Source of the DNA: Pseudomonas saponiphila
GTDB taxonomy: Bacteria; Pseudomonadota; Gammaproteobacteria; Pseudomonadales; Pseudomonadaceae
DNA length: 64,000 nt
Direction: 5' to 3'
NCBI RefSeq assembly: GCF_900105185.1
Contig: NZ_FNTJ01000002.1
Location: forward strand, 744,001 to 808,000
Position numbers and translations under genes: made by a program. Positions 10,936-27,076 of this stretch are shown one piece after another (positions within the stretch are counted from its first letter, which is position 1; each line of letters begins with the position of its first letter). Under the pieces are notes generated by a model, which did not search any database, was not told where the DNA came from, and saw only the letters and a program-made list of their open reading frames with translations.

Positions 10936-12300
10936 TCAGTTGAGCAGGTCGCGCAGAACCTGGGTGAAGGCCCGGCTACTGTCATCTTCGGCGGCGTGAT
11001 GCCCGTCGCGCACCACCCATTGTCCACCCACCATCACATCCCGCACCTGACGGCCGCCACCGGCGAACAGCCAACGGTTGAGAATGCCGTCGCCCTCGGC
11101 CGTGGCCAGGTAGGGGTCATTGCCATCCAGCACCAGCCAGTCGGCGCGCTTGCCCACGGCCAGGGCGCCAATGCCTTGCCCCAGCGCCTGGGCGCCGCCA
11201 TCCAGCGCGGCGTCGTACAAGGTCCGGCCAACCATGGGCTGGTCGGCGCGGTACAGGCGGTTGCGCCGTTGATCCCGCAGGCGCTGGCCGTATTCCAGCC
11301 AGCGCAGTTCTTCCACCACGCTCAGCGATACATGGCTGTCGGAACCGATGCCCAGGCGACCGCCCTGGGCGAGGAAATCCACGGCCGGGAAGATGCCGTC
11401 CCCCAGGTTGGCTTCGGTGGTCAGGCACAGGCCGGCAATCGCCCGGCTCTTGGCCATGAGGCTGACTTCTTCCGGGTTGGCGTGAGTGGCGTGGACCAGG
11501 CACCAGCGCTGATCCACCGCGACGTTTTCGTACAGCCATTGCAGGGGGCGGCGTCCGCTCCAGGCCAGGCAGTCGTCAACTTCCTTCTGCTGCTCGGCAA
11601 TGTGGATATGTACCGGGCATTGGCGGTCGCTGGCGGCCAGCACTTCGCTGACCTGCTGGGGCGTGACCGCGCGCAATGAGTGAAAGCACAGGCCCAGTTG
11701 CTGGTTGGCCTGCTGCGCCAGCATGGGTTGCAGTTGCTGTTGCAGCTTGAGGTAGTTTTCCGTGCTGTTGATGAAGCGGCGCTGGCCGTCATTCGGCGCC
11801 TGGCCGCCAAAGCCCGAGTGGCTGTACAGCACCGGCAGCAGAGTCAGGCCGATGCCGCTGCCGGCAGCCGCCTGGCTGATGCGTCGGGACAGCTCGGCGG
11901 GGTCGGCATAGGGCCGGCCATCGCTGTCGTGGTGCACGTAATGGAATTCGGCCACCGAGGTGTAGCCGGCCTTGAGCATTTCGATGTACAGCTGGCGGGC
12001 GATGACCTGCAGTTGGTCTGGGGTGATCTTGCCCACCAGGCGGTACATCAGGTCGCGCCAGGTCCAGAAGCTGTCATTGGGGTTGCCGGCCACTTCCGCC
12101 AGCCCGGCCATGGCCCGCTGGAAAGCGTGGGAGTGCAGGTTGGGCATGCCGGGCAGCAGCGGGCCCTTGAGCCGTTGTGCACCTTCAGCGCTGGCGTTGG
12201 CCTGGATCTGTGTCAACAGGCCATCGGGGCTGACTTCAAGACGTACATGATTGGCCCATCCATCAGGCAGCAGCGCGCGTTCGGCAAAGAAGGCGGACAT
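10936..12300 (-). CDS. hutF: Formimidoylglutamate deiminase
   Basis: 454 residues. An amidohydrolase-superfamily enzyme that converts N-formimino-L-glutamate to N-formyl-L-glutamate and ammonia. It is the marker of the five-step histidine pathway used by pseudomonads, whose next step is HutG. The metal-binding HSH (His56, His58) is in PNLHSHAF; further metal ligands are in HIHIAEQ and in GIGSDSHVS. It is transcribed away from hutC with a HutC-type operator in the gap. Length and motifs are normal. Confidence 0.96.
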   Translation of the reverse strand: MSAFFAERALLPDGWANHVRLEVSPDGLLTQIQANASAEGAQRLKGPLLPGMPNLHSHAFQRAMAGLAEVAGNPNDSFWTWRDLMYRLVGKITPDQLQVIARQLYIEMLKAGYTSVAEFHYVHHDSDGRPYADPAELSRRISQAAAGSGIGLTLLPVLYSHSGFGGQAPNDGQRRFINSTENYLKLQQQLQPMLAQQANQQLGLCFHSLRAVTPQQVSEVLAASDRQCPVHIHIAEQQKEVDDCLAWSGRRPLQWLYENVAVDQRWCLVHATHANPEEVSLMAKSRAIAGLCLTTEANLGDGIFPAVDFLAQGGRLGIGSDSHVSLSVVEELRWLEYGQRLRDQRRNRLYRADQPMVGRTLYDAALDGGAQALGQGIGALAVGKRADWLVLDGNDPYLATAEGDGILNRWLFAGGGRQVRDVMVGGQWVVRDGHHAAEDDSSRAFTQVLRDLLN

Positions 12301-12327
12301 GGTTCAAGCACCCCATCGTGTGTTATT

Positions 12328-12337
12328 TGTATATACA
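12328..12337. promoter_or_regulatory. Candidate HutC operator between hutF and hutC
   Basis: TGTATATACA is a perfect palindrome of the TGTA-N2-TACA form recognised by HutC, a GntR/HutC-family repressor. It lies 28 bp upstream of the hutF start and 70 bp upstream of the hutC start. It could therefore control both directions, including hutC autoregulation. Confidence 0.75.
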
Positions 12338-12407
12338 TATACAGACGTTTGCCTGCCCGGTAAACTCCGGCAAGCTAGTCACCTTTTTTGCTCAACAAGG
12401 ATTTCCT

Positions 12408-13157
12408 GTGCCGACTCCGCCTGCCAAATCGCCGCTGGCTGCCCATCTGGGCGATAGTCCGGCGCCCTTGTATGCCCGCGTCAAACAGATGATCACCCAG
12501 CAGATCGAGAGCGGAAACTGGCCGCCGCATTATCGGGTTCCCTCGGAGAGCGAGCTGGTCAACCAGCTGGGTTTCAGCCGCATGACCATCAACCGCGCGC
12601 TGCGCGAGATGACTGCCGAAGGCCTGCTGGTGCGCATGCAGGGCGTGGGGACGTTCGTCGCCGAGCCCAAGAGTCAGTCGGCCTTGTTCGAAGTGCACAA
12701 CATTGCCGACGAGATCGCTTCCCGCGGTCATCGGCATACCTGCCAGGTCATTACCCTGGGGGAAGAGGCCGCCGGTTCCGAGCGCGCCCTGGCCCTGGAC
12801 ATGCGTGAAGGGCAGAAGGTCTTCCACTCGCTGATCGTGCATTTCGAAAACGACATCCCGGTGCAGATCGAAGACCGCTTCGTCAACGCCCTGGTGGCGC
12901 CGGAGTACCTCAAGCAGGACTTCACCCTGCAAACCCCCTACGCCTATCTGTCCCAGGTGGCGCCGCTGACCGAGGGCGAACATGTGGTCGAGGCGATCCT
13001 CGCCGAGCCCGAGGAGTGCCGGCTGCTGCAGATCGAGCGCGGCGAGCCGTGCCTGCTGATTCGCCGTCGTACTTGGTCCGGACGTCAGCCGGTAACCGCC
13101 GCCCGGTTGATCCACCCCGGTTCCCGTCATCGCCTGGAAGGACGCTTTCATAAATGA
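12408..13157 (+). CDS. hutC: Histidine-utilisation repressor HutC (GntR family)
   Basis: 249 residues from GTG at 12408, chosen because AACAAGG sits 8 bp upstream and the sequence VPTPPAKSPLAAH matches HutC N termini; an ATG at 12318 in the same frame would place the operator inside the gene. It has an N-terminal winged helix (YRVPSESELVNQLGFSRMTI) and a C-terminal UTRA effector domain that binds urocanate, the inducer. It represses hutF and the hutU operon. Its stop overlaps the hutD start by four bases (ATGA). Confidence 0.95.
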   Translation: MPTPPAKSPLAAHLGDSPAPLYARVKQMITQQIESGNWPPHYRVPSESELVNQLGFSRMTINRALREMTAEGLLVRMQGVGTFVAEPKSQSALFEVHNIADEIASRGHRHTCQVITLGEEAAGSERALALDMREGQKVFHSLIVHFENDIPVQIEDRFVNALVAPEYLKQDFTLQTPYAYLSQVAPLTEGEHVVEAILAEPEECRLLQIERGEPCLLIRRRTWSGRQPVTAARLIHPGSRHRLEGRFHK

Positions 13158-13726
13158 TCCGGCCCACCCTGTTACGCGCCGCCGACTACCCGCGCATGCC
13201 CTGGAAGAACGGCGGTGGCAGCACCGAGGAAATCACCCGTGATGCCGGCACTGGCCTGGAAGGTTTTGGCTGGCGCCTGTCGATTGCCGACATCGGCGAG
13301 TCCGGCGGCTTCTCCAGCTTTGCCGGTTATCAGCGGATCATTACCGTGCTGCAAGGCGCGGGCATGCAGCTGACGGTGGATGGCGAAGAGGTACGGCCGT
13401 TGCTGCCGCTGGATCCCTTCGCCTTCAGTGGCGCCAGCCAGGTGAGCTGTGCGCTGCTGGACGGGGCGATCCGCGACTTCAACCTGATCTACTGCCCTGA
13501 GCGTTATGTCGCTCGTTTGCAGTGGTTCGATGGTCAGCAGCGCTTCTTTACCCAGGCCCACACCGTGCTGGTGTTCAGTGCTGCCGAGCAAGCCTGGGTC
13601 GACACGGGCGGTACTCCGTTGCAGGCCCTGGGTCGTTACGATTGTCTGCGCCTGGATCGCAATGCCGGCGTAGTGGAGATCGCCACCGACGGACGCTGCT
13701 GCGTCATCGAACTCACCGCCCGCTGA
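13154..13726 (+). CDS. hutD: HutD family protein
   Basis: 190 residues, a bicupin-like HutD protein. The N-terminal block YPRMPWKNGGGSTEEI is diagnostic. In P. fluorescens HutD is reported to temper hut expression, perhaps by binding formylglutamate and setting an upper limit on operon activity; the mechanism is unsettled. It is translationally coupled to hutC, so the two regulators are made together. A strong hairpin follows. Confidence 0.95.
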   Translation: MIRPTLLRAADYPRMPWKNGGGSTEEITRDAGTGLEGFGWRLSIADIGESGGFSSFAGYQRIITVLQGAGMQLTVDGEEVRPLLPLDPFAFSGASQVSCALLDGAIRDFNLIYCPERYVARLQWFDGQQRFFTQAHTVLVFSAAEQAWVDTGGTPLQALGRYDCLRLDRNAGVVEIATDGRCCVIELTAR

Positions 13727-14075: not shown

Positions 14076-14144
14076 TAAATATGTGTGCGTAAGAGTCGAT
14101 GGAATCCTCTTCGCACCTTGGACTCATCGCCGAGGAGTTTTTCC

Positions 14145-15827
14145 GTGACTGACAGCAAACCCACCAAGTTCCGCAACGTCGAAATTCGCGCCGCACGTGG
14201 CAACAAGCTGACCGCCAAGAGCTGGCTGACCGAAGCGCCGCTGCGCATGCTGATGAACAACCTCGATCCGGAAGTCGCCGAGAACCCCAAGGAGCTGGTG
14301 GTCTACGGCGGCATTGGTCGCGCCGCGCGCAACTGGGAGTGCTACGACAAGATCGTCGAGGCCCTGACCCAGCTCAATGACGACGAAACCCTGCTGGTGC
14401 AGTCCGGCAAGCCGGTCGGTGTGTTCAAGACCCACAGCAATGCGCCACGGGTACTGATCGCCAACTCCAACCTGGTGCCGCACTGGGCCAGTTGGGAGCA
14501 CTTCAACGAACTGGACGCCAAGGGCCTGGCCATGTACGGCCAGATGACCGCTGGCAGCTGGATCTACATCGGCAGCCAGGGCATCGTCCAGGGCACTTAT
14601 GAAACCTTCGTCGAGGCCGGTCGCCAGCATTACGACTCCAACCTCAAGGGCCGCTGGGTCCTGACCGCAGGCCTGGGTGGCATGGGTGGTGCGCAACCTC
14701 TGGCCGCGACCCTGGCCGGGGCCTGCTCGCTGAACATCGAGTGCCAGCAGACCAGCATCGACTTCCGCCTCAAGACCCGTTACGTCGACGAACAGGCCAC
14801 CGACCTGGACGACGCCCTGGCGCGGATCAAGAAATACACCGCCGAAGGCCGCGCGATCTCCATCGCCCTGTGTGGCAACGCCGCTGAAATCCTGCCGGAA
14901 CTGGTACGCCGCGGCGTGCGTCCGGACATGGTCACCGACCAGACCAGCGCCCACGACCCGCTCAACGGCTACCTGCCCAAGGGCTGGACCTGGGAGCAGT
15001 ACCGCGATCGCGCCAAGACCGAGCCGGCCGCCGTGATCAAGGCCGCCAAGCAGTCGATGGCCGAACACGTCAAGGCCATGCTGGCCTTCCAGAAGATGGG
15101 CGTGCCGACCTTCGACTACGGCAACAACATCCGTCAGATGGCCCAGGAAGAAGGCGTCGAGAATGCCTTTGACTTCCCGGGGTTCGTCCCGGCCTACATC
15201 CGCCCGCTGTTCTGCCGCGGCATCGGCCCGTTCCGTTGGGCGGCGCTGTCCGGCGACCCGCAGGACATCTACAAGACCGACGCCAAGGTCAAGGAACTGA
15301 TCCCCGACGACGCCCACCTGCACAACTGGCTGGACATGGCCCGCGAGCGCATCAGCTTCCAGGGCCTGCCAGCGCGGATCTGCTGGGTCGGCCTGGGCCA
15401 GCGCGCCAAGCTCGGCCTGGCGTTCAACGAAATGGTGCGCAGCGGCGAGCTGTCGGCGCCGATCGTCATCGGTCGCGACCATCTGGACTCCGGTTCCGTG
15501 GCCAGCCCGAACCGTGAAACCGAATCCATGCAGGACGGCTCCGACGCCGTGTCCGACTGGCCGCTGCTCAACGCCCTGTTGAACACCGCCAGCGGTGCGA
15601 CCTGGGTTTCCCTGCACCACGGCGGCGGTGTCGGCATGGGCTTCTCCCAGCATTCGGGGATGGTCATTGTCTGCGACGGCACCGATGAAGCAGCCGAGCG
15701 GATTGCCCGGGTGCTGCACAACGATCCGGCTACCGGGGTCATGCGTCACGCCGACGCCGGCTACCCGATCGCGATCGACTGCGCCAAGGAACAGGGCCTG
15801 AACCTGCCGATGATCACCGGCAAGTAA
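14145..15827 (+). CDS. hutU: Urocanate hydratase (urocanase)
   Basis: 560 residues from GTG at 14145, with ribosome-binding site GAGGAG at 14132-14137; an in-frame ATG at 14085 has no such site. It converts urocanate to imidazolone propionate using tightly bound NAD+. The NAD-binding GGIGRAARN is near residues 55-63, and the conserved Cys is in ARICWVGLG near residue 410. It is the first gene of the hut structural operon, behind the sigma-54 promoter. Confidence 0.97.
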
Positions 15828-15855: not shown

Positions 15856-15934
15856 TGTAGGAGCCAGCTTGCTGGCGAAGCAAGCACCGCGGTGCATCAA
15901 CTGCACCGCCTCGCGAGCAAGCTCGCTCCTGCAG
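15856..15934. repeat. REP pair of mixed type
   Basis: A GCCAGCTTGCTGGC-type unit faces a GCGAGCAAGCTCGC-type unit, separated by an inner imperfect stem (CACCGCGGTGCA region). It lies between hutU and the permease gene and may reduce read-through or protect the hutU message. Confidence 0.85.
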
Positions 15935-15972
15935 TGGAAGTCGTCTGTAGTGCCCATAGAGGTTTGACGTCC

Positions 15973-17442
15973 ATGGCCTTAGGAAATGATCGTGCAAGCA
16001 GCAAGCCGTTGATCGAAAGGCGCTCGATCGACTACATCCCGGAAGCGGAAAGACACGGTCGTCTCTTGAGCCAGTTCACTCTGTGGCTGGGTGCCAACCT
16101 GCAGATCACGGCGATCGTCACCGGCGCTCTGGCGGTGGTGCTGGGCGGTGATGTGTTCTGGTCGTTGATCGGTCTGCTGATCGGGCAATTGCTGGGCGGC
16201 GGGGTGATGGCGCTGCATGCGGCGCAAGGGCCGAAGCTCGGGCTGCCGCAGATGATTTCCAGTCGGGTGCAGTTCGGGGTCTATGGCGCGGCCATCCCGA
16301 TGGTGCTGGTGTGCCTGATGTACCTGGGGTTCACCGCGACTGGCACGGTGCTGTCCGGGCAGGCGCTGGGGCAGATGTTCGGTGTCAGCGACAGTCTCGG
16401 CATCCTGATGTTCGCCAGCATCATTGTGCTCGTCACCGTGCTCGGCTATCGGGTGATCCACTACATCGGCCGGGTCGCCAGCGTGATCGGCGTGGTCGCC
16501 TTCTTCTATCTGTTCAGCCGGCTGCTGAGCCAGACCGATATCAGTGCCTTGCTGGCCATTCGGCACTTCAGCTGGAGCAGTTTCCTCCTGGCGGTGTCGC
16601 TGGCCGCGTCCTGGCAGATCGCGTTCGGCCCTTACGTGGCCGACTACTCGCGCTATTTGCCGAGCAAGACGTCGCCGTTGAAGACGTTCTTCGCCGCGGG
16701 CGCGGGTTCGGTGATCGGTGCCCAGGTGGCGATGGTGCTCGGCGTGTTCGCCGCAGCGCTGTCCAAGGGCCAGTTCGCCGGTCGTGAAGTGGCCTACATC
16801 GTCGGCCTGGGCGGCAGTGGCGCGATTGCCGCGATGCTCTACTTCAGCATCGCCTTCGGCAAGGTGACCATCTCGACGCTGAACTCCTACGGCAGCTTCA
16901 TGTGCATCGCCACCATCATCAGCGGCTTTCGCGGCGAGTTGAAAGTGACGCGCCTGCAGCGGTTGGTCTTCGTGTTGCTGATCGTCGGTGCCGCGACCCT
17001 GATCGCACTGCTGGGCCAGCACTCGTTCCTTGGCGCATTCAAGTCTTTCATCCTGTTCCTGCTGGCGTTCTTCACGCCCTGGAGCGCGATCAACCTGGTG
17101 GATTTCTACTGCATCACCAAAGAACGCTATGACATCCCGGCCCTGTCCAACCCGGACGGTCGCTACGGTCGCTGGAATGTCATGGGCATCGGCATTTATG
17201 TATTCGGCGTGCTGGTCCAGATGCCGTTCATCTCTACCCACTTCTATACCGGCCCGCTGGTGGCGAGTCTGGGCGATACCGACATCTCCTGGATCATCGG
17301 CCTGGTGGTGCCCGCGGCGTTGTATTACGCCTGCGCGAAGAAGTGGCATGGCGCGGTGCCCGAGCAGTTGATCCTGCCGGTAGAGCAGGGCGCGGCCAAC
17401 GAACAAAAGCTGAGTGAGGCCGGCCGCGCTGCTGCGGTGTGA
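15973..17442 (+). CDS. NCS1-family permease, probable urocanate transporter (HutTu-like)
   Basis: 489 residues with about twelve membrane helices. The N-terminal block IPEAERHG...LWLGANLQITAI is typical of nucleobase-cation-symport-1 carriers (cytosine, purines, allantoin, thiamine). Its place between hutU and hutXWV matches the gene proposed as the urocanate carrier in P. fluorescens, so urocanate is the likely substrate; cytosine or hydantoin-like substrates remain possible on sequence alone. The start at 15973 was chosen because the frame upstream runs through the REP pair. Confidence 0.85.
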   Translation: MALGNDRASSKPLIERRSIDYIPEAERHGRLLSQFTLWLGANLQITAIVTGALAVVLGGDVFWSLIGLLIGQLLGGGVMALHAAQGPKLGLPQMISSRVQFGVYGAAIPMVLVCLMYLGFTATGTVLSGQALGQMFGVSDSLGILMFASIIVLVTVLGYRVIHYIGRVASVIGVVAFFYLFSRLLSQTDISALLAIRHFSWSSFLLAVSLAASWQIAFGPYVADYSRYLPSKTSPLKTFFAAGAGSVIGAQVAMVLGVFAAALSKGQFAGREVAYIVGLGGSGAIAAMLYFSIAFGKVTISTLNSYGSFMCIATIISGFRGELKVTRLQRLVFVLLIVGAATLIALLGQHSFLGAFKSFILFLLAFFTPWSAINLVDFYCITKERYDIPALSNPDGRYGRWNVMGIGIYVFGVLVQMPFISTHFYTGPLVASLGDTDISWIIGLVVPAALYYACAKKWHGAVPEQLILPVEQGAANEQKLSEAGRAAAV

Positions 17443-18555: not shown

Positions 18556-19407
18556 ATGTTTCCAGACCGCTTCACTTTTTCCATCGCCGACTGGGTCAAC
18601 GGCTGGGTCGACGCCCTGGTGACCCAATACGGCGACGTGTTCCGGCACATCTCCGACACCCTGCTGTGGGCTATCGTCAATCTTGAGGGGTTGCTGCGCC
18701 TGGCGCCCTGGTGGCTGATGCTGGCGATTGTCGGCGGCATCGCCTGGCATGCGACCCGCAAGCTGCTGACCACGGCGGTGATCGTCGGCCTGCTGTTCCT
18801 GGTGGGCGCCGTCGGCCTGTGGGACAAGCTGATGCAGACCCTGGCCCTGATGCTGGTGGCGACGCTGATCTCGGTGCTGATCGGCATCCCCCTGGGGATC
18901 CTTTCAGCCCGCAGCAACCGCTTGCGTTCGGTGCTGATGCCGCTGCTGGACATCATGCAGACCATGCCCAGCTTCGTGTACCTGATCCCGGTGCTGATGC
19001 TGTTCGGCCTGGGCAAGGTGCCGGCGATCTTCGCCACGGTGATCTACGCAGCTCCGCCGCTGATCCGTCTCACCGACCTGGGCATCCGCCAGGTGGATGG
19101 TGAAGTCATGGAGGCGATCAACGCCTTTGGTGCCAACCGCTGGCAGCAGCTGTTCGGCGTGCAACTGCCCCTGGCCTTGCCGAGCATCATGGCCGGGATC
19201 AACCAGACCACCATGATGGCTCTGTCGATGGTGGTGATCGCCTCGATGATCGGTGCCCGTGGCCTGGGCGAGGATGTGCTGGTGGGCATCCAGACCCTCA
19301 ACGTCGGGCGTGGCCTGGAAGCGGGGCTGGCGATCGTGATTCTGGCGGTGGTGATCGACCGCATTACCCAGGCCTACGGTCGTCCACGTCATGAGGTGAG
19401 CAAATGA
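18556..19407 (+). CDS. hutW: ABC transporter permease HutW
   Basis: 283 residues, ProW-like inner-membrane permease. It has an amphipathic N-terminal segment, about six membrane helices, and the coupling loop with the EAA-type motif ([20 protein letters not shown]). Its stop overlaps the hutV start by four bases (ATGA), so permease and ATPase are coupled. It is part of the HutXWV importer. Confidence 0.92.
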
Positions 19408-20234
19408 GCAGTGCTGCCGTGAGCAAGATCGAAGTCAGGAACGTCTTCAAGATATTCGGCAACCGCCCCGCTGACGCGCTGGCGATGATCCGCCAGGGCC
19501 AGAGCAAGGATCAGGTACTGGCCCAGACGGGCTGCGTGGTGGGGGTCAATGACTTGTCGCTGAGCATCGGCACTGGTGAGATCTTCGTCATCATGGGCCT
19601 GTCCGGTTCCGGCAAGTCGACTCTGGTGCGCCACTTCAACCGTCTGATCGACCCCACCAGTGGCGCGATCCTGGTGGACGGCGAAGACATCCTGCAATAC
19701 GACATGGAGGCCCTGCGCCAATTCCGCCGGCACAAGATCAGCATGGTGTTCCAGAGCTTCGGCCTGCTACCCCACCGCAACGTGCAGGACAACGTCGCCT
19801 ATGGCCTCAAGGTGCGCGGCGAGAGCAAGGCGCTGTGCGCCGAGCGGGCCCTGCACTGGATCAACACCGTGGGCCTCAAGGGCTACGAGAAGAAGTACCC
19901 GCACCAGCTGTCCGGTGGCATGCGCCAGCGGGTCGGCCTGGCCCGGGCCCTGGCCGCGGACACCGACATCATCCTCATGGACGAAGCCTTCAGCGCCCTG
20001 GACCCGCTGATCCGCGCCGAGATGCAGGACCAGTTGCTGGAGCTGCAGAAGACCCTGCACAAGACCATCGTCTTCATCACCCACGATCTGGACGAGGCGG
20101 TGCGCATCGGCAACCGCATCGCGATCCTCAAGGACGGCCGCCTGATCCAGGTCGGTACGCCGAAAGAGATCCTGCATTCGCCGGCGGACGAGTATGTCGA
20201 TCGTTTCGTCCAGCGTCGCGCCGCGACGGTGTAG
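19404..20234 (+). CDS. hutV: ABC transporter ATP-binding protein HutV
   Basis: 276 residues, ProV-like. Walker A GLSGSGKS at residues 65-72, signature [15 protein letters not shown], Walker [14 protein letters not shown]. Unlike E. coli ProV it has no C-terminal CBS domains, so osmotic gating is not expected, in keeping with a catabolic role. The stop codon TAG is itself the first three bases of a REP unit. Confidence 0.92.
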
Positions 20235-20303: not shown

Positions 20304-21827
20304 ATGTCCCAGGCTGAAAAAATCGTTATCGCCGACGCCCCCCTGGGTTGGCAGGATGTAGTCGCCGTCGCCCGTCATGGCGCGCAGCTTGAACTGTCGG
20401 CCCAGGCCTGGGCGCGTATCGACAATGCCCAGGCCATCGTCCGCCAGGTGGTGGACAGCGGCGAGCGCGCCTATGGCATCAGCACCGGTCTGGGCGCCTT
20501 GTGCAACGTGCTGCTGGCCGGTGAGCAACTCAGCCAGCTGTCGCGCAACACCTTGCTCAGCCACGCTTGCGGGGTCGGGCCGGCGTTGGCCGACGAACAG
20601 ACCCGGGCGATTCTCTGCGCCGCCATCATCAACTACAGCCACGGCAAGTCCGGTATCCACCGCCAGGTGGTCCAGGCGCTGCTGAACCTGCTCAATCGCG
20701 GCATCACCCCGCAAGTGCCGTCCCAGGGCTCGGTGGGTTACCTGACCCACATGGCCCATATCGGTATCGCCTTGCTGGGTGTCGGTCAGGTCAGCTATCG
20801 CGGACGTCTTGTCAGCGCCGAACAGGCCCTGGCCGAGGAAGGGCTGCAGCCGGTGCAACTGGGAGCCAAGGATGGCCTGTGCCTGGTCAACGGCACGCCG
20901 TGCATGACCGGCCTCAGCTGCCTGGCCCTGGCCGACGCCAGCCGCCTGTTGCAGTGGGCCGATGTGATCGGCGCCATGAGTTTCGAGGCCCAGCGCGGCC
21001 AGATCGACGCCTTCGATGCCCAGATCATTGCCCTCAAGGCGCACCCCGGCATGCAGGTGGTGGGCAGCAATCTGCGGGCCTTGCTCGACCGTAGCGAAGT
21101 GATCGCCGCCAGCCGTGGCATCCGCACCCAGGACGCCTTGAGCATCCGTTCCATTCCCCAGGTGCATGGCGCTGCCCGGGATCAACTGGCCCACGCTGTC
21201 AGGCAGGTGGAAATCGAACTCAATGGCGCCACCGACAACCCGTTGCTGCTGGGCACTCCGGACCGCTATCGGGTGGTGTCCCAGGCCAACCCTCACGGGC
21301 AGTCGGTGGCCCTGGCGGCGGATCTGCTGGCGATCGCCATGGCCGAGATCGGCTCGATTGCCGAGCGCCGCCTGGACCGCCTGATCAACCCTCATGTCAG
21401 TGGCTTGCCGGCGTTTCTGGTGAGCGAGCCTGGGGTCAACTCCGGGATGATGATCGTGCAGTACGTGGCCGCCTCGCTGTGTGCCCAGAACCGTCAGCTG
21501 GCCCAGCCGGCGGTGCTGGACAACTACGTGACCTCGGGTCTGCAGGAAGACCACCTGAGCCTGGGCACCAATGCCGCCCTGAAGTTGCATCAGGTACTGG
21601 AGAACTGCACCCAGATCCTTGCCATCGAGTACCTGCTGGCAGCCCAGGCTTTCGAATTTCTCAAGGCGCAGCGCTTCGGCACCGGCACCGGTATCGCCTG
21701 GTGCCTGTTGCGCGAGCGGGTCCCGGCCTATGACCAGGACCGCTGGCTGGCGCCGGACATTGCCAGCGCGGCGGCGCTGCTCAAGGACCCGGAGCTGCTG
21801 CACAAACGTTTTTCCAAGGTGCAATAA
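20304..21827 (+). CDS. hutH1: HutH1: histidine ammonia-lyase homologue lacking the MIO triad
   Basis: 507 residues of the aromatic amino-acid lyase fold, clearly related to HutH2 next door. Where HutH2 has [14 protein letters not shown], this protein has GSVG-YLTHMAH (GSVG at residues 142-145). Aligned without other gaps, exactly the three residues Ala-Ser-Gly that cyclise into the MIO electrophile are missing. The catalytic Tyr of QDPYS is Leu279 here (QDALS). Other site residues remain: Tyr57 in AYGIS, His in LSHACG, Asn in LVNGT, Glu in QEDH. Ordinary ammonia-lyase chemistry is therefore not expected. The reading frame is full length, so it is a maintained protein. Possible roles are a regulator or partner of HutH2, a ligand-binding protein, or a different enzyme. 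Confidence 0.9.
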   Translation: MSQAEKIVIADAPLGWQDVVAVARHGAQLELSAQAWARIDNAQAIVRQVVDSGERAYGISTGLGALCNVLLAGEQLSQLSRNTLLSHACGVGPALADEQTRAILCAAIINYSHGKSGIHRQVVQALLNLLNRGITPQVPSQGSVGYLTHMAHIGIALLGVGQVSYRGRLVSAEQALAEEGLQPVQLGAKDGLCLVNGTPCMTGLSCLALADASRLLQWADVIGAMSFEAQRGQIDAFDAQIIALKAHPGMQVVGSNLRALLDRSEVIAASRGIRTQDALSIRSIPQVHGAARDQLAHAVRQVEIELNGATDNPLLLGTPDRYRVVSQANPHGQSVALAADLLAIAMAEIGSIAERRLDRLINPHVSGLPAFLVSEPGVNSGMMIVQYVAASLCAQNRQLAQPAVLDNYVTSGLQEDHLSLGTNAALKLHQVLENCTQILAIEYLLAAQAFEFLKAQRFGTGTGIAWCLLRERVPAYDQDRWLAPDIASAAALLKDPELLHKRFSKVQ

Positions 21828-21948
21828 ACGGTTTTTCCATCACCAGCGTGCCAAGGCGTCACTCGCGCAGAACCGCAAATGACGACGGATAACGGAAACT
21901 TCCGGAGCGACTGGTAGTTATTACAAAACTCTCAAAAGGAGCATGAAT

Positions 21949-23481
21949 GTGACTGCGCTTAATCTGATTCCCGGCCAACTGACCCTGGCCCAACTGCGGG
22001 CCATCTATCAGCAGCCGCTGACCCTGACCCTGGACCACAGCGCCTCGGCGCAGATCGACGCCAGCGTGGCCTGTGTCGAGCAGATCCTTGCCGAGAACCG
22101 CACCGCCTACGGGATCAACACCGGTTTTGGCCTGCTGGCCTCGACCCGCATCGCCAGCGCCGACCTGGAAAACCTCCAGCGCTCCCTGGTGCTGTCCCAT
22201 GCCGCCGGCGTGGGCGAGCCGATCAGCGACGATCTGGTGCGTCTGATCATGGTGCTCAAGGTCAACAGCCTGAGCCGCGGCTTCTCCGGCATCCGCCGCC
22301 AGGTGATCGACGCCCTGATCGCCCTGATCAATGCCGAGGTCTATCCGCATATTCCGCTCAAGGGTTCGGTGGGCGCTTCCGGCGACCTGGCGCCGCTGGC
22401 GCACATGTCCCTGGTGCTGCTGGGCGAGGGCAAGGCGCGCTACAAGGGCCAGTGGCTGGACGCCACCGCAGCCCTGGAAATCGCTGGCCTGAAGCCCTTG
22501 ACCCTGGCCGCCAAGGAGGGCCTGGCGCTGCTCAACGGTACCCAGGTGTCTACCGCGTTCGCCCTGCGTGGCCTGTTCGAAGGCGAAGACCTGTTCGCCG
22601 GTGCCCTGGTCTGCGGTGGCCTGACCGTGGAAGCGGTACTGGGTTCGCGCTCGCCGTTCGACCCACGGATTCATGCCGCTCGCGGTCAGCGCGGGCAGAT
22701 CGATACCGCCGCGGCCTACCGGGCGTTGCTGGGCGAGAGCACCGAGGTTTCCGCTTCGCACCAGAACTGCGACAAGGTTCAGGACCCGTACTCCCTGCGT
22801 TGCCAGCCTCAGGTGATGGGCGCCTGCCTGACCCAGTTCCGCCAGGCCGCTGAAGTGCTGGTGGTCGAAGCCAACGCCGTGTCCGACAACCCGCTGGTGT
22901 TCGCTGCCGAAGGCGACGTGATTTCCGGCGGCAACTTCCACGCCGAGCCGGTGGCCATGGCGGCCGACAACATGGCCCTGGCCATTGCCGAGATCGCGTC
23001 CCTGAGCGAGCGCCGTATCTCGCTGATGATGGACAAGCACATGTCCCAGCTGCCGCCGTTCCTGGTGGCCAATGGCGGGGTCAACTCCGGCTTCATGATC
23101 GCCCAGGTGACCGCTGCGGCCCTGGCCAGCGAGAACAAGGCCCTGGCCCACCCGCACTCGGTGGACAGCATTCCCACTTCCGCCAACCAGGAAGACCACG
23201 TTTCCATGGCGCCGGCCGCCGGCAAGCGTCTGTGGGAAATGGCCGAGAACACCCGCGGTGTGCTGGCCGTGGAATGGCTGGCGGCCTGCCAGGGCCTGGA
23301 CCTGCGCGAAGGCCTGAAAACCTCGCCGACCCTGGAAAAAGCTCGCGCCACCCTGCGCGAGAAAGTGGCGTACTACGAGAAGGACCGTTTCTTTGCACCG
23401 GATATCAACGCGGCCAGCGAGTTGTTGGCTTCGCGGTGCCTGAATGGGCTGTTGCCAGCCCAGTTGTTGCCGAGCCTGTAA
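21949..23481 (+). CDS. hutH: Histidine ammonia-lyase (functional form)
   Basis: 510 residues from GTG at 21949, preferred to ATG at 21943 because AGGAG ends seven bases before it and [17 protein letters not shown] aligns with known HutH N termini. It deaminates L-histidine to urocanate and ammonia, the first pathway step. The MIO-forming Ala-Ser-Gly is at residues 143-145, with Tyr54 ([10 protein letters not shown]), Tyr281 (QDPYSLR) and Glu in QEDHVSM all present. This is the HutH2 copy of pseudomonads and should carry the histidase activity. HutH1 is encoded directly upstream. Confidence 0.97.
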
Positions 23482-23613
23482 TGCACGCCGGGCCGCCAGA
23501 CAACGCCGTGTTCGGCCAATGGCGGCCCTCGTGGGTTTGCTGTATCTGCAAGACAGGCGCGGAGCGCCTGCTTCTTCTGCCTCGCGCACCTGCGCGGGGC
23601 GTATGTGTCCGAT

Positions 23614-23621
23614 AACAATAA
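23614..23621 (+). promoter_or_regulatory. Catabolite-activity (Hfq/Crc) motif at the hutT ribosome-binding site
   Basis: AACAATAA matches the AAYAAYAA Hfq/Crc target exactly and runs into AAAGGGA, the ribosome-binding site of hutT. Hfq with Crc bound here would block histidine permease translation when preferred carbon sources are present, and CrcZ would relieve the block. Confidence 0.7.
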
Positions 23622-23634
23622 AAGGGACGATGAC

Positions 23635-25047
23635 ATGCAATCGCAAGAGACTGGATTACGTCGGGGGCTGACAGCTCGCCATATACGCTTCATGGCCCTG
23701 GGGTCGGCCATCGGCACCGGATTGTTCTACGGTTCGGCCTCCGCCATCCAGATGGCTGGCCCGGCTGTGTTGCTGGCCTACCTGATTGGTGGCGCGGCGG
23801 TGTTCATGGTGATGCGCGCCCTGGGGGAGATGGCGGTACACAACCCGGTGTCCGGCTCCTTCGGGCAGTACGCCAGCCAGTACCTGGGGCCCTTGCCGGG
23901 CTTCATCCTGGGCTGGACCTATGCCTTCGAGATGCTCATCGTCTGCCTGGCGGACGTCACGGCCTTCGGTATCTACATGGGCTTCTGGTTTCCCGAGGTG
24001 GCACGCTGGATCTGGGTGCTGGGCATCGTCCTGCTCATCGGCGGGCTGAACCTGTGCAGCGTCAAGGTCTTCGGCGAGATGGAGTTCTGGCTGTCGCTGC
24101 TCAAGGTCGGGGCGATCATCGCGATGATCCTCGGCGGCTTCGGCATCATGCTGTTCGGCATGGGCAGCGCCTTCACCGAGCAGGCCACCGGCGCCAGCAA
24201 CCTCTGGGCCCATGGCGGCTTCATGCCCAATGGCATCAGCGGGGTGATCGCCTCCTTTGCGGTGGTGATGTTCGCCTTCGGTGGCATCGAGATCATTGGC
24301 GTCACCGCTGGTGAGGCCAAGGATCCGCAGCGGGTCATTCCCAAGGCGATCAACGCGGTGCCTCTGCGCATCCTGCTGTTCTACGTGCTGACTCTGTTCG
24401 TGCTGATGTCGATTTTCCCCTGGCCACAGATTGGCACTCAGGGCAGTCCGTTCGTGCAGATCTTTGACAGCCTGGGCATCAGCTCGGCGGCCACCATCCT
24501 CAATATCGTGGTGATTTCGGCGGCAGTGTCGGCCATCAACAGCGACATCTTCGGCGCTGGGCGCATGATGTACGGCCTGGCCCAGCAAGGGCAGGCGCCC
24601 AAGGGCTTTGCCCAGGTGTCCAAGGCCGGGGTGCCGTGGATGACCGTGGTGGTGATGGCCGTGACCCTGTTGGGCGGCGTGGTGCTGAACTACCTGATCC
24701 CGGAAGACATCTTCCTGCTGATCGCTTCCCTGGCCACGTTCGCCACGGTCTGGGTGTGGCTGATGATTCTGCTGACCCATGTGGCCATGCGCCGCTCCAT
24801 GACCGCCGAGCAGGTAGCCAGGTTGCAGTTCAAGGTGCCGTTCTGGCCTTGGGCGCCTGCGGCGGCGATCGCCTTCATGCTGTTCATCTTTGGCGTGCTG
24901 GGCTACTTCCCGAAAACTCAAGCGGCGCTGTTGGTGGGCGCGGTGTGGATCGTGCTGTTGGTGGTGGCCTATCTGTTGTGGGTCAAACCGGCGGCGGGAC
25001 AGGCTCAGCAGATCCGCGTCGATTCTTCTTTACCTACTGATCATTAA
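23635..25047 (+). CDS. hutT: Histidine permease (amino-acid transporter family)
   Basis: 470 residues from ATG at 23635; an ATG 30 bases upstream (23605) is possible but would include the Hfq/Crc motif and the ribosome-binding site in the coding region. Twelve membrane helices. The first helix [20 protein letters not shown] is typical of the AAT family of proton-amino-acid symporters. Position in the hut operon points to L-histidine. With HutXWV and the NCS1 permease it gives three import routes in one operon. Confidence 0.93.
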
Positions 25048-25059
25048 CGGAGGCCTTGG

Positions 25060-26265
25060 ATGAAAACTCTTTGGCAACACTGCAACGTCGCCAGCATGGC
25101 CCAGGGCACTTACTCGATCATCGAGGACGCGGCCATCGTGACGTCAGGGGCGCACATCGAGTGGATCGGCCGGCGCCAGGCGGCGCCGGTCGCCGATTAT
25201 TCCCAGGTCCAGGACCTGGGCGGTGCCTGGGTCACCCCTGGGCTGATCGATTGCCACACCCACATCGTGTTTGGCGGCAACCGCAGCGGTGAGTTCGAAC
25301 AGCGCCTGCAGGGCGTGAGCTACGCCGAGATCGCCGCCGCCGGTGGCGGGATTGCCAGCACCGTGCGAGCCACTCGCGCCGCCTCGGAAGAGGAACTGTT
25401 CGTCAGCGCCCGCAAGCGACTGCTGAGCCTGCTGCGCGATGGCGTCACCAGCGTCGAGATCAAGTCCGGCTATGGCCTGGACCTGGCCAGCGAGCGCAAG
25501 CTCCTGCGGGTCATCCGCCGCCTGGGCGAAGAGTTGCCGGTCAGCGTGCGCAGCACCTGCCTGGCGGCTCATGCCCTGCCGCCGGAATACGCCGAGCGCA
25601 GCGACGACTACATCGAGCACATCTGCATGGAAATGCTCCCGGCCCTGGCGGCCGAAGGGCTGGTGGATGCGGTGGACGCCTTCTGTGAATACCTGGCGTT
25701 CTCCCCGGCCCAGGTGGAGCGGGTATTCATCGCTGCGCAGCAGCTCGGACTGCCGGTCAAGTTGCATGCCGAGCAACTGTCGTCCCTGCATGGTTCGAGC
25801 CTGGCGGCACGCTACCGGGCGCTTTCCGCCGATCACCTGGAGTTCATGACCGAGGACGATGCGATCGCCATGGCGGCCTCGGGAACCGTCGCGGTGTTGC
25901 TGCCGGGAGCGTTCTATTTCCTCCGGGAAACCCAGCTGCCGCCGATGGCCGCCTTGCGCAAGCATGGGGTGAAGATGGCAGTGGCCAGCGACCTCAATCC
26001 CGGCACGTCGCCGGTGCTGTCGCTGCGCCTGATGCTGAACATGGCCTGCACCTGTTTGCGCATGACCCCCGAGGAGGCGCTGGCCGGGGTGACCCTGCAC
26101 GCGGCCCAGGCCCTGGGCATGGACAAGACCCATGGTTCGCTGGAAGCGGGCAAGGTGGCGGACTTCGTCGCCTGGCAGATCGAGCGCCCCGCCGACCTGG
26201 CTTACTGGTTGGGCGGCGACCTGGAAAAGCGCGTCGTGCGACACGGGGTTGAAGTGACTGTTTAG
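25060..26265 (+). CDS. hutI: Imidazolonepropionase
   Basis: 401 residues, amidohydrolase superfamily. Hydrolyses 4-imidazolone-5-propanoate to N-formimino-L-glutamate, the third step of the pathway. Metal ligands His66 and His68 are in [10 protein letters not shown]; further ligands lie in KLHAEQ and in [10 protein letters not shown]. It starts 12 bp after hutT and is followed after 10 bp by hutG. Confidence 0.97.
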
Positions 26266-26275
26266 GAGAAGGCTT

Positions 26276-27076
26276 GTGGATAAGGTTCTGACGTTCAAAC
26301 AAGGCCGGGTGCCGCTGCTGATCAGCATGCCCCACGCCGGTACGCGCCTGACCCCGGAAGTGGCGGCCGGCTTGGTGCCCCAGGCGCAGAGCCTGCCGGA
26401 TACCGACTGGCACATCCCGCGGTTGTATGAATTTGCCGAGGAGATGGGGGCCAGCACCCTGGCCGCCGAGTACTCGCGTTTCGTCATCGACTTGAACCGG
26501 CCCTCCGATGACAAGCCGCTGTACGCGGGCGCCACCACCGGGCTGTATCCGGCGACGCTGTTCGATGGCCAGCCCTTGTTCGTCGAGGGGCAGGCACCGT
26601 CCAAAGAAGATCGGCAGCACTACCTGGAACAGGTCTGGGTGCCTTATCACCGCACCCTGCAGGAGGAGCTGGCGCGGCTCAAGGCCGAGTTCGGCTACGC
26701 CCTGCTGTTCGATGCCCATTCCATCCGCTCGCTGATTCCGCATCTGTTCGAGGGCAAGCTGCCGGATTTCAATCTCGGCACCTTCAATGGCGCCAGCTGC
26801 AATCCGCAACTGGCCGGCCGCCTGGAGAGCATTTGCGCGGCCCATGGCGATTACACCCACGTGCTCAACGGCCGTTTCAAGGGCGGGCACATCACCCGGC
26901 ATTACGGAAACCCGGCCGCGCACATTCATGCGGTGCAACTGGAGCTGGCGCAGAGCGCCTACATGGAGGAGTTCGAGCCGTTCCGCTATCGCGAGGATCT
27001 GGCGGCACCGACCCAGGTGGTGCTCAAGGCATTGCTGCAGGGGCTGCTGACCTGGGGCCAGGAGCATTACCGCTGA
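26276..27076 (+). CDS. hutG: N-formylglutamate deformylase
   Basis: 266 residues from a GTG start preceded by AGGAGAAGG. It hydrolyses N-formyl-L-glutamate to glutamate and formate, completing the five-step pathway begun for this branch by HutF. The zinc-binding blocks SMPHAGTRL and LFDAHSIRS, with GHITRHYG further on, are those of the FGase family. It is the last gene of the operon, and a REP pair follows. Confidence 0.96.
   Translation: MDKVLTFKQGRVPLLISMPHAGTRLTPEVAAGLVPQAQSLPDTDWHIPRLYEFAEEMGASTLAAEYSRFVIDLNRPSDDKPLYAGATTGLYPATLFDGQPLFVEGQAPSKEDRQHYLEQVWVPYHRTLQEELARLKAEFGYALLFDAHSIRSLIPHLFEGKLPDFNLGTFNGASCNPQLAGRLESICAAHGDYTHVLNGRFKGGHITRHYGNPAAHIHAVQLELAQSAYMEEFEPFRYREDLAAPTQVVLKALLQGLLTWGQEHYR

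Follow-up and report, generated by a model that had tools for sequence, protein, structure and literature searches.

Canonical histidine ammonia-lyases (HutH) depend on MIO, an electrophile formed from an Ala-Ser-Gly (ASG) triad that turns a primary amine into a good leaving group through attack by that amine. A trimethylammonium group cannot attack MIO and already leaves readily. Structures are available for the Pseudomonas putida histidine ammonia-lyase (HAL; PDB 1b8f, 1gkj and 1eb4), and because PDB entry titles include mutants of this enzyme at Tyr280, Phe329 and Asp145, these residues had evidently been singled out earlier. A related phenylalanine lyase from which MIO has been removed (S153A RxPAL) retains almost no deamination activity (PMC3903478). 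Ergothionase, which has the HAL fold (T. denticola, PDB 6s7j/6s7q), is described as splitting trimethylamine from ergothioneine without MIO (PMC13405746). In P. fluorescens SBW25, hutH1 is not required on histidine, a role in the uptake of histidine is reported for HutXWV, and hutTu seems to carry urocanate (PMC8871633). Mutant data from another paper were left out because it labels PA5093 as hutG (PMC12772324).

The window, a 64,000-nucleotide stretch of the 7.38 Mb Pseudomonas saponiphila genome, contains a hut cluster with two HutH-like genes, hutH1 and hutH2, the latter 115 bp downstream of the former. The genes and the altered sites occur in this order:

10936..12300, reverse strand: hutF, formimidoylglutamate deiminase (profile match)
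12318..13157, forward strand: hutC, hut repressor (profile match)
13154..13726, forward strand: hutD-like gene, matching the Ves model only and below its cut-off, named from its position
14085..15827, forward strand: hutU, urocanate hydratase, which would take the HutH1 product (TIGR01228, 1021.6 bits)
15892..17442, forward strand: hutTu, NCS1-type permease (profile match; PMC8871633)
17518..18483, forward strand: hutX, OpuAC-like periplasmic binding protein (profile match; four Trp at places common to a solved betaine-type binding protein)
18556..19407, forward strand: hutW, ChoW/ProW-type permease (TIGR03416, 291.4 bits against a cut-off of 363)
19404..20234, forward strand: hutV, ProV/ChoV-type ATPase (TIGR01186, 362.9 bits against a cut-off of 326.6)
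20304..21827, forward strand: hutH1, predicted MIO-less HAL-family lyase of 507 aa (profile matches, alignment, pocket residues)
20727..20750, forward strand: HutH1 residues 142-149, GSVGYLTH, where the MIO triad is missing (sequence, BLASTP)
21138..21140, forward strand: Leu279 codon of hutH1, where HutH has the catalytic Tyr (Tyr280 of P. putida HAL) (alignment)
21943..23481, forward strand: hutH2, canonical MIO histidase with ASG and Tyr kept (profile match, BLASTP)
23605..25047, forward strand: hutTh-like APC permease, ProY-like but below cut-off, named from its position
25060..26265, forward strand: hutI, imidazolonepropionase (profile match)
26276..27076, forward strand: hutG, N-formylglutamate deformylase (profile match)

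HutH1 and HutH2 (512 aa) are identical at 185 of 478 positions (39%) by BLASTP, and a single three-residue gap between them coincides with the MIO site (GSVGY---LTHMAH). The first-pass annotation had described HutH1 as a full-length, in-frame protein, which it is, with a clean deletion of the ASG triad. A loss of three residues stands, and the triad Ser and Gly are gone under either alignment; which three were lost cannot be fixed from the sequences, since BLASTP places Tyr146 of HutH1 opposite the Ala of HutH2 and deletes Ser-Gly-Asp. Leu279 does occupy the place of the catalytic Tyr, as that annotation held, although the HutH2 residue is Tyr283 in its own ORF numbering (Tyr280 of P. putida HAL) and not Tyr281. 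At a third position, Pro330 replaces Phe332 of HutH2, a Phe conserved in HutH (Phe329 of P. putida HAL). HutH1 keeps Tyr57, His87, Asn196, Gln276, Arg282, Met383 and Glu415 in the alignment, which bears out the earlier statement that Tyr57 and the His, Asn and Glu of the pocket remain.

The fold is predicted with high confidence (AlphaFold2 mean pLDDT 91.4), and Foldseek returns a P. putida HAL structure as the top match of the model (TM 0.91), with ergothionase 6s7j at rank 13 (TM 0.91 and 0.93); in a search of a 39-aa piece against the PDB, ergothionase was not among the matches listed. HutH1 therefore resembles HutH in fold and in seven pocket residues, but differs from it in the absence of ASG and at the Tyr and Phe positions. 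With 532.0 bits, HutH1 stays under the TIGR01225 equivalog cut-off of 539.15. Its PRK09367 score of 544.4 exceeds the 524 set for that subfamily, and this may lead to its automatic annotation as histidine ammonia-lyase. Annotators indeed label homologues histidine ammonia-lyase or HAL/PAL/TAL family ammonia-lyase, a naming that a check for ASG would prevent for proteins of the HutH1 type (H1-type).

Is HutH1 simply a broken gene? Among the matches listed, the nearest named homologues are those of Pseudomonas protegens and its near kin, and all of the best 120 of 7,074 matching proteins carry both GSVGYLTHMAH and TQDALS[IL]R, with Leu for the catalytic Tyr. The triad is absent and the Leu present in all 85 relatives from named genomes (80) and plasmids (5), which span Rhizobiaceae, Burkholderiaceae, Thalassospira, Labrys, Erwinia and others. 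For the named genomes we took the best 80 of 591 loci confirmed through similarity to a Sinorhizobium protein, and the set is not fully independent, as the altered site is part of one of the two patterns behind it; the site reads GYLSH in 47 of the 85, however, a form that the altered-site pattern does not match and through which these relatives were thus not recruited. The five plasmid loci were drawn from 60 listed of 896 records, and five more from the same listing also lack the triad. At all 29 Pseudomonas loci found by protein similarity, the HutH1 site is altered and the adjoining HutH2 site normal. HutH1 is present in 104 of 149 sampled Pseudomonas genomes (E 1e-100 or better), with an internal stop flagged in two of the 104 (G581 and G682). 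Median dN/dS relative to the window across the 29 loci is 0.115 for hutH1 and 0.077 for hutH2, and hutH1 is under purifying selection. We reject a strain defect or pseudogene on the basis of this conservation, which goes well past what chance would give, and of the distribution and constraint. None of the H1-type homologues examined keeps ASG, so the outcome that the first-pass annotation had named as refuting its view, homologues mostly retaining ASG, did not arise.

Three HutH1 relatives lie on viral contigs, two of which serve as alignment rows. In one Pseudomonas genome (G606), hutC, hutX and hutW form an orphan transporter locus (L212), and no HutH2 match was found in that genome at E 1e-40.

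To compare pockets we aligned 88 chosen rows, among them 19 of the 85 H1 sequences from named genomes and plasmids and, with two rows each, two of the 29 Pseudomonas loci; the two rows of the window's own genes (L149) were left out. Positions are given in P. putida HAL numbering. All 32 canonical HutH rows keep ASG, Tyr280, Phe329 and the seven other pocket residues (Tyr53, His83, Asn195, Gln277, Arg283, Met382 and Glu414). All 34 H1-type rows keep the same seven, lack MIO, and have Leu at 280 and either Ala (22) or Pro (12) at 329. Nine MIO rows of other types fall outside the HutH class in this comparison (L003, L168, L169, L173-L177 and L179). As far as alignments can tell, the HutH1 pocket is remodelled, not decayed. 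Arg283 presumably holds the carboxylate, and we take His83, Met382 and Glu414 to lie at the imidazole. If these roles are right, the change is limited to the alpha-nitrogen side and three features leave together; the joint loss of MIO, Tyr280 and Phe329 would then be what a larger N-substituent needs.

We regard hercynine (histidine betaine, N-alpha-trimethylhistidine) as the most probable substrate: in our preferred reading, which we think somewhat better than evenly balanced, HutH1 is an active lyase that dispenses with MIO and splits hercynine into trimethylamine and urocanate. The wider claim, that HutH1 is an active MIO-free lyase whatever its substrate, we hold with considerable confidence. 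HutH1 would bind an imidazole amino acid with a quaternary alpha-nitrogen, the loss of MIO, Tyr280 and Phe329 making room for the N-methyls; a beta-proton would be removed, trimethylamine expelled and urocanate formed, which could then pass through HutU, HutI, HutF and HutG to glutamate. The substrate would be imported by HutXWV, or by a BCCT carrier or an amino-acid ABC importer in relatives. As a quaternary amine is unable to attack MIO and leaves well, MIO would not be needed for hercynine. Conversely, the near inactivity of S153A RxPAL argues that HutH1 should not be a histidase. Hercynine is proposed because it fits the kept and lost residues, the betaine-type carriers, control by HutC and the presence of HutU. 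Our search of openly licensed literature returned no paper that brings hercynine, urocanate and trimethylamine together, and no description of the conversion of hercynine to urocanate and trimethylamine. Of the options raised in the first-pass annotation, a different reaction is now the best supported, whereas a regulator, a sensor or a HutH2 partner is less likely given the remodelled pocket and the scarcity of canonical HutH near H1-type genes (below).

A broader proposal is more tentative, and we rate it as possible but short of probable: that hercynine catabolism is widespread and unrecognised in Proteobacteria, and that H1-type proteins are a second, separately evolved cofactor-free trimethylamine-lyase derived from an ammonia-lyase by triad deletion with Tyr to Leu and Phe to Ala or Pro changes. 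Were this true, a large group of proteins that bear the name histidine ammonia-lyase would instead produce trimethylamine. The hercynine reading itself would call for a corrected annotation of this group and would explain the dispensability on histidine of hutH1, called a second histidase. The hut operon would gain a second entry point, and soil and rhizosphere a further source of trimethylamine. The pair also offers a natural test of the purpose of MIO, as a single operon encodes the scaffold in both forms, one with MIO and one lacking it.

The transport genes of the window are consistent with a quaternary amine. HutX, HutW and HutV resemble the choline/glycine-betaine ABC class in sequence, with only HutV passing a cut-off; HutX falls below the cut-offs for ProX and choline binders, in which it differs from them, and its ligand is putative. 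In this class, proteins that bind choline or betaine enclose the cation in an aromatic box. The best PDB match of HutX is a betaine-type binding protein (7yle), and HutX Trp 41, 89, 119 and 221, which lie in motifs common to 7yle and a rhizobial protein, may form such a box. EgtU binds ergothioneine, and its authors, in the part of the paper available, liken the probable contact to that of glycine-betaine and choline binders (PMC9732360).

Linkage to such transport extends well beyond the window, with ChoXWV/ProXWV-type importers and BCCT carriers recurring as cluster partners of H1-type lyases in the manner of HutXWV. Of the 104 Pseudomonas genomes with HutH1, 95 have HutX (at least 71% identity) no more than 6 kb away from it. 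In three of the other nine (L199, L200 and L211), a BCCT carrier sits directly upstream of HutH1, between it and HutU (assigned by Pfam in L199 and L200, and by 86% identity to the L199 carrier in L211), and a fourth locus, from another family of the same order (L201), reads hutU-BCCT-hutH1-hutI, the BCCT again by Pfam. Among the 85 named and plasmid loci, an OpuAC-type binding protein was labelled in 22, but a HisJ-type importer in 58; neither was found within six genes in five, and in two of these (L025 and L094) no hut gene was found nearby. Labels come from a simple ORF caller with BLAST against a small reference set, so that an unlabelled gene is not evidence of absence. Of the six remaining Pseudomonas genomes without HutX near HutH1, four have HutW in the cluster (L206-L209), two of them (L207 and L208) with a HisJ-type ABC importer as well, and two have a HisJ-type ABC importer there (L204 and L210). 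Two further H1-type loci have no labelled importer (L202 and L203), the former being next to an efflux system. In most Burkholderia and rhizobial loci the H1-type gene adjoins an importer and hutC, and HutC is within six genes in 65 of the 85. We know of no HisJ/ArgT-type importer for quaternary amines, and the 58 HisJ-type loci are the main weakness of the hercynine assignment.

This predominance of HisJ-type importers outside Pseudomonas is one reason to consider that HutH1 is instead an MIO-free lyase for N-alpha-mono- or dimethylhistidine, or for an imidazole amino acid modified in some other way at the alpha-nitrogen. Genes for an N-methyl amino-acid oxidase of SolA type also point this way, occurring in the cluster at five loci: L007 and L008 (2 of the 85), L106, L205 and L210, which belong to rhizobia, to genome G326 and to one Pseudomonas. 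SolA acts on secondary amines, the model being N-methyltryptophan oxidase. A clade sister to the H1-type proteins that has lost MIO and kept the Tyr could be read similarly, with a formaldehyde-detoxifying dehydrogenase gene adjoining in one of the three loci read (L198). However, secondary and tertiary amines are poorer leaving groups than trimethylamine, and neighbours of BCCT and OpuAC type suggest a quaternary one; we consider this alternative unlikely. Reading four other plasmid loci of Rhizobium turned up no SolA. In Rhizobium etli CFN 42, an FAD oxidoreductase with a GcvT-like part, of a kind seen in demethylating dehydrogenases, is encoded close to the H1-type gene (oxidoreductase at L103:9029-11590, reverse strand).

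Loss of both the electrophile and the catalytic Tyr would also be expected of a catalytically dead paralogue that acts as a HutH2 partner, a regulator, or a histidine or urocanate sensor. The dispensability of hutH1 on histidine (PMC8871633) and the near loss of deamination upon MIO removal in RxPAL (PMC3903478) agree with this. Yet the other pocket residues are kept in all 34 rows alongside a concerted change at three positions, and the gene is carried with an importer, whereas only 8 of the 85 loci have a canonical HutH, the would-be partner, up to six genes away in either direction. As a regulator is already present in HutC, we judge a dead paralogue decidedly unlikely.

A third alternative is that HutH1 is an ergothionase, converting ergothioneine to thiourocanate, with which it shares the fold (TM about 0.91 with 6s7j), the loss of MIO and, expectedly, a betaine-type chemistry. 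We sought pathway-linked ergothionases (ErtA) through thiourocanate hydratase (ErtB), a family whose cut-off is exceeded in 5 of 349 Pseudomonadota genomes. A HAL-family gene lies within 20 kb of ErtB at four of the five loci (L098-L101), and none was found in the 20 kb of the fifth (L102); the L098 cluster also has thiohydantoin desulfurase, ErtD and ErtE. Two of the ErtA proteins were compared with solved structures, and both match 6s7j best. All four ErtA rows resemble HutH1 in lacking MIO and in having Leu at the Tyr280 place. Unlike HutH1, however, to which they are 23-25% identical, they read GCA-DI in the loop (GS[IM]GCA-DI, against GY-LTH), a one-residue shortening with the Asp kept in place of a three-residue one, and they have lost Asn195 and Met382, which H1-type proteins keep (Asn196 and Met383 in HutH1). 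A Met382 in contact with the ring would leave no space for a 2-thione. If it makes that contact, its retention in HutH1 and loss in ErtA may separate imidazole from thioimidazole substrates.

The genomic setting of ergothionase, an operon with ErtB-E, differs too. The only urocanase-family match in the window's genome is hutU, which is under the thiourocanate hydratase cut-off, and no match to thiohydantoin desulfurase (ErtC) was found there. ErtB was found in none of 229 sampled Gammaproteobacteria at E 1e-250, a search in which no control matched either, while the same family was found elsewhere in the 5 of 349. Two genomes hold both proteins (G326, with ErtA L098 and H1-type L178/L205, and G264, with ErtA L100 and H1-type L180), and the two are therefore unlikely to be interchangeable. 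On motif, pocket and pathway context we reject HutH1 as a simple ergothionase, which is very improbable. Ergothionase nonetheless tempers the earlier suggestion of undescribed biochemistry: as a claim of something wholly undescribed it was too strong, given that an MIO-less enzyme of the same fold is already on record (PMC13405746).

Returning to the preferred reading, a lyase acting on hercynine would feed the hut pathway alongside histidine. Canonical HutH is matched in 139 of the 149 Pseudomonas genomes (E 1e-150 or better), and HutH1 occurs in 104 of these 139 and in 0 of the 10 others (Fisher p 3e-6, not corrected for relatedness), leaving 35 with HutH and no HutH1. Such a distribution is as expected of an accessory feeder that yields urocanate from a substrate other than histidine and depends on the later steps of the pathway. 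In three genomes (G614, G648 and G587), HutH1 is inside the hut cluster and an ASG-bearing HutH, 61-63% identical to HutH2, is elsewhere. Two of the 104 are less clear-cut: in G597 the canonical HutH match covers only residues 3-318, and in G643 it is split in two and a stop is flagged. The last case, the annotators' names and the PRK09367 score would suit a histidase still working without MIO, but the failed TIGR01225 cut-off, the absence of HutH1 from all 10 genomes without canonical HutH and the near inactivity of the MIO-less mutant of this family (PMC3903478) make this the least credible alternative.

In a quick tree of the 88 rows, with several long branches flagged, the 34 H1-type rows form one clade (SH-aLRT 100). 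Their sister clade (support 92) comprises L192, L193 and L172, from Pseudomonas and a relative, and both sit nearer HutH than ErtA. The AU test does not reject a topology that unites every MIO-less row (p 0.41), though the differing loop shapes favour separate losses of MIO in HutH1 and ergothionase. The sister-clade proteins, encoded in L196-L198, lack the triad (GYLxxEGHL) and keep the catalytic Tyr and the Phe, and their substrate likely differs from that of HutH1. A HisJ-type ABC importer adjoins their genes in L196-L198, and an S-(hydroxymethyl)glutathione dehydrogenase gene does so in L198. In L203, a sister-clade member is a few genes away from an H1-type gene.

More than one kind of MIO-less lyase exists in the family. 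Further HAL-family proteins without ASG (L181-L186) are encoded in genomes of f204, the family in which ErtA occurs, with loops of GAAD, GAGD and GEGD type and, in some, Leu at the Tyr280 place. The window's own genome encodes a third HAL-family protein (L003, G000:C2:841049-842425) that has ASG, in surroundings that, judged by eye, look like a lipid or aryl-polyene type cluster.
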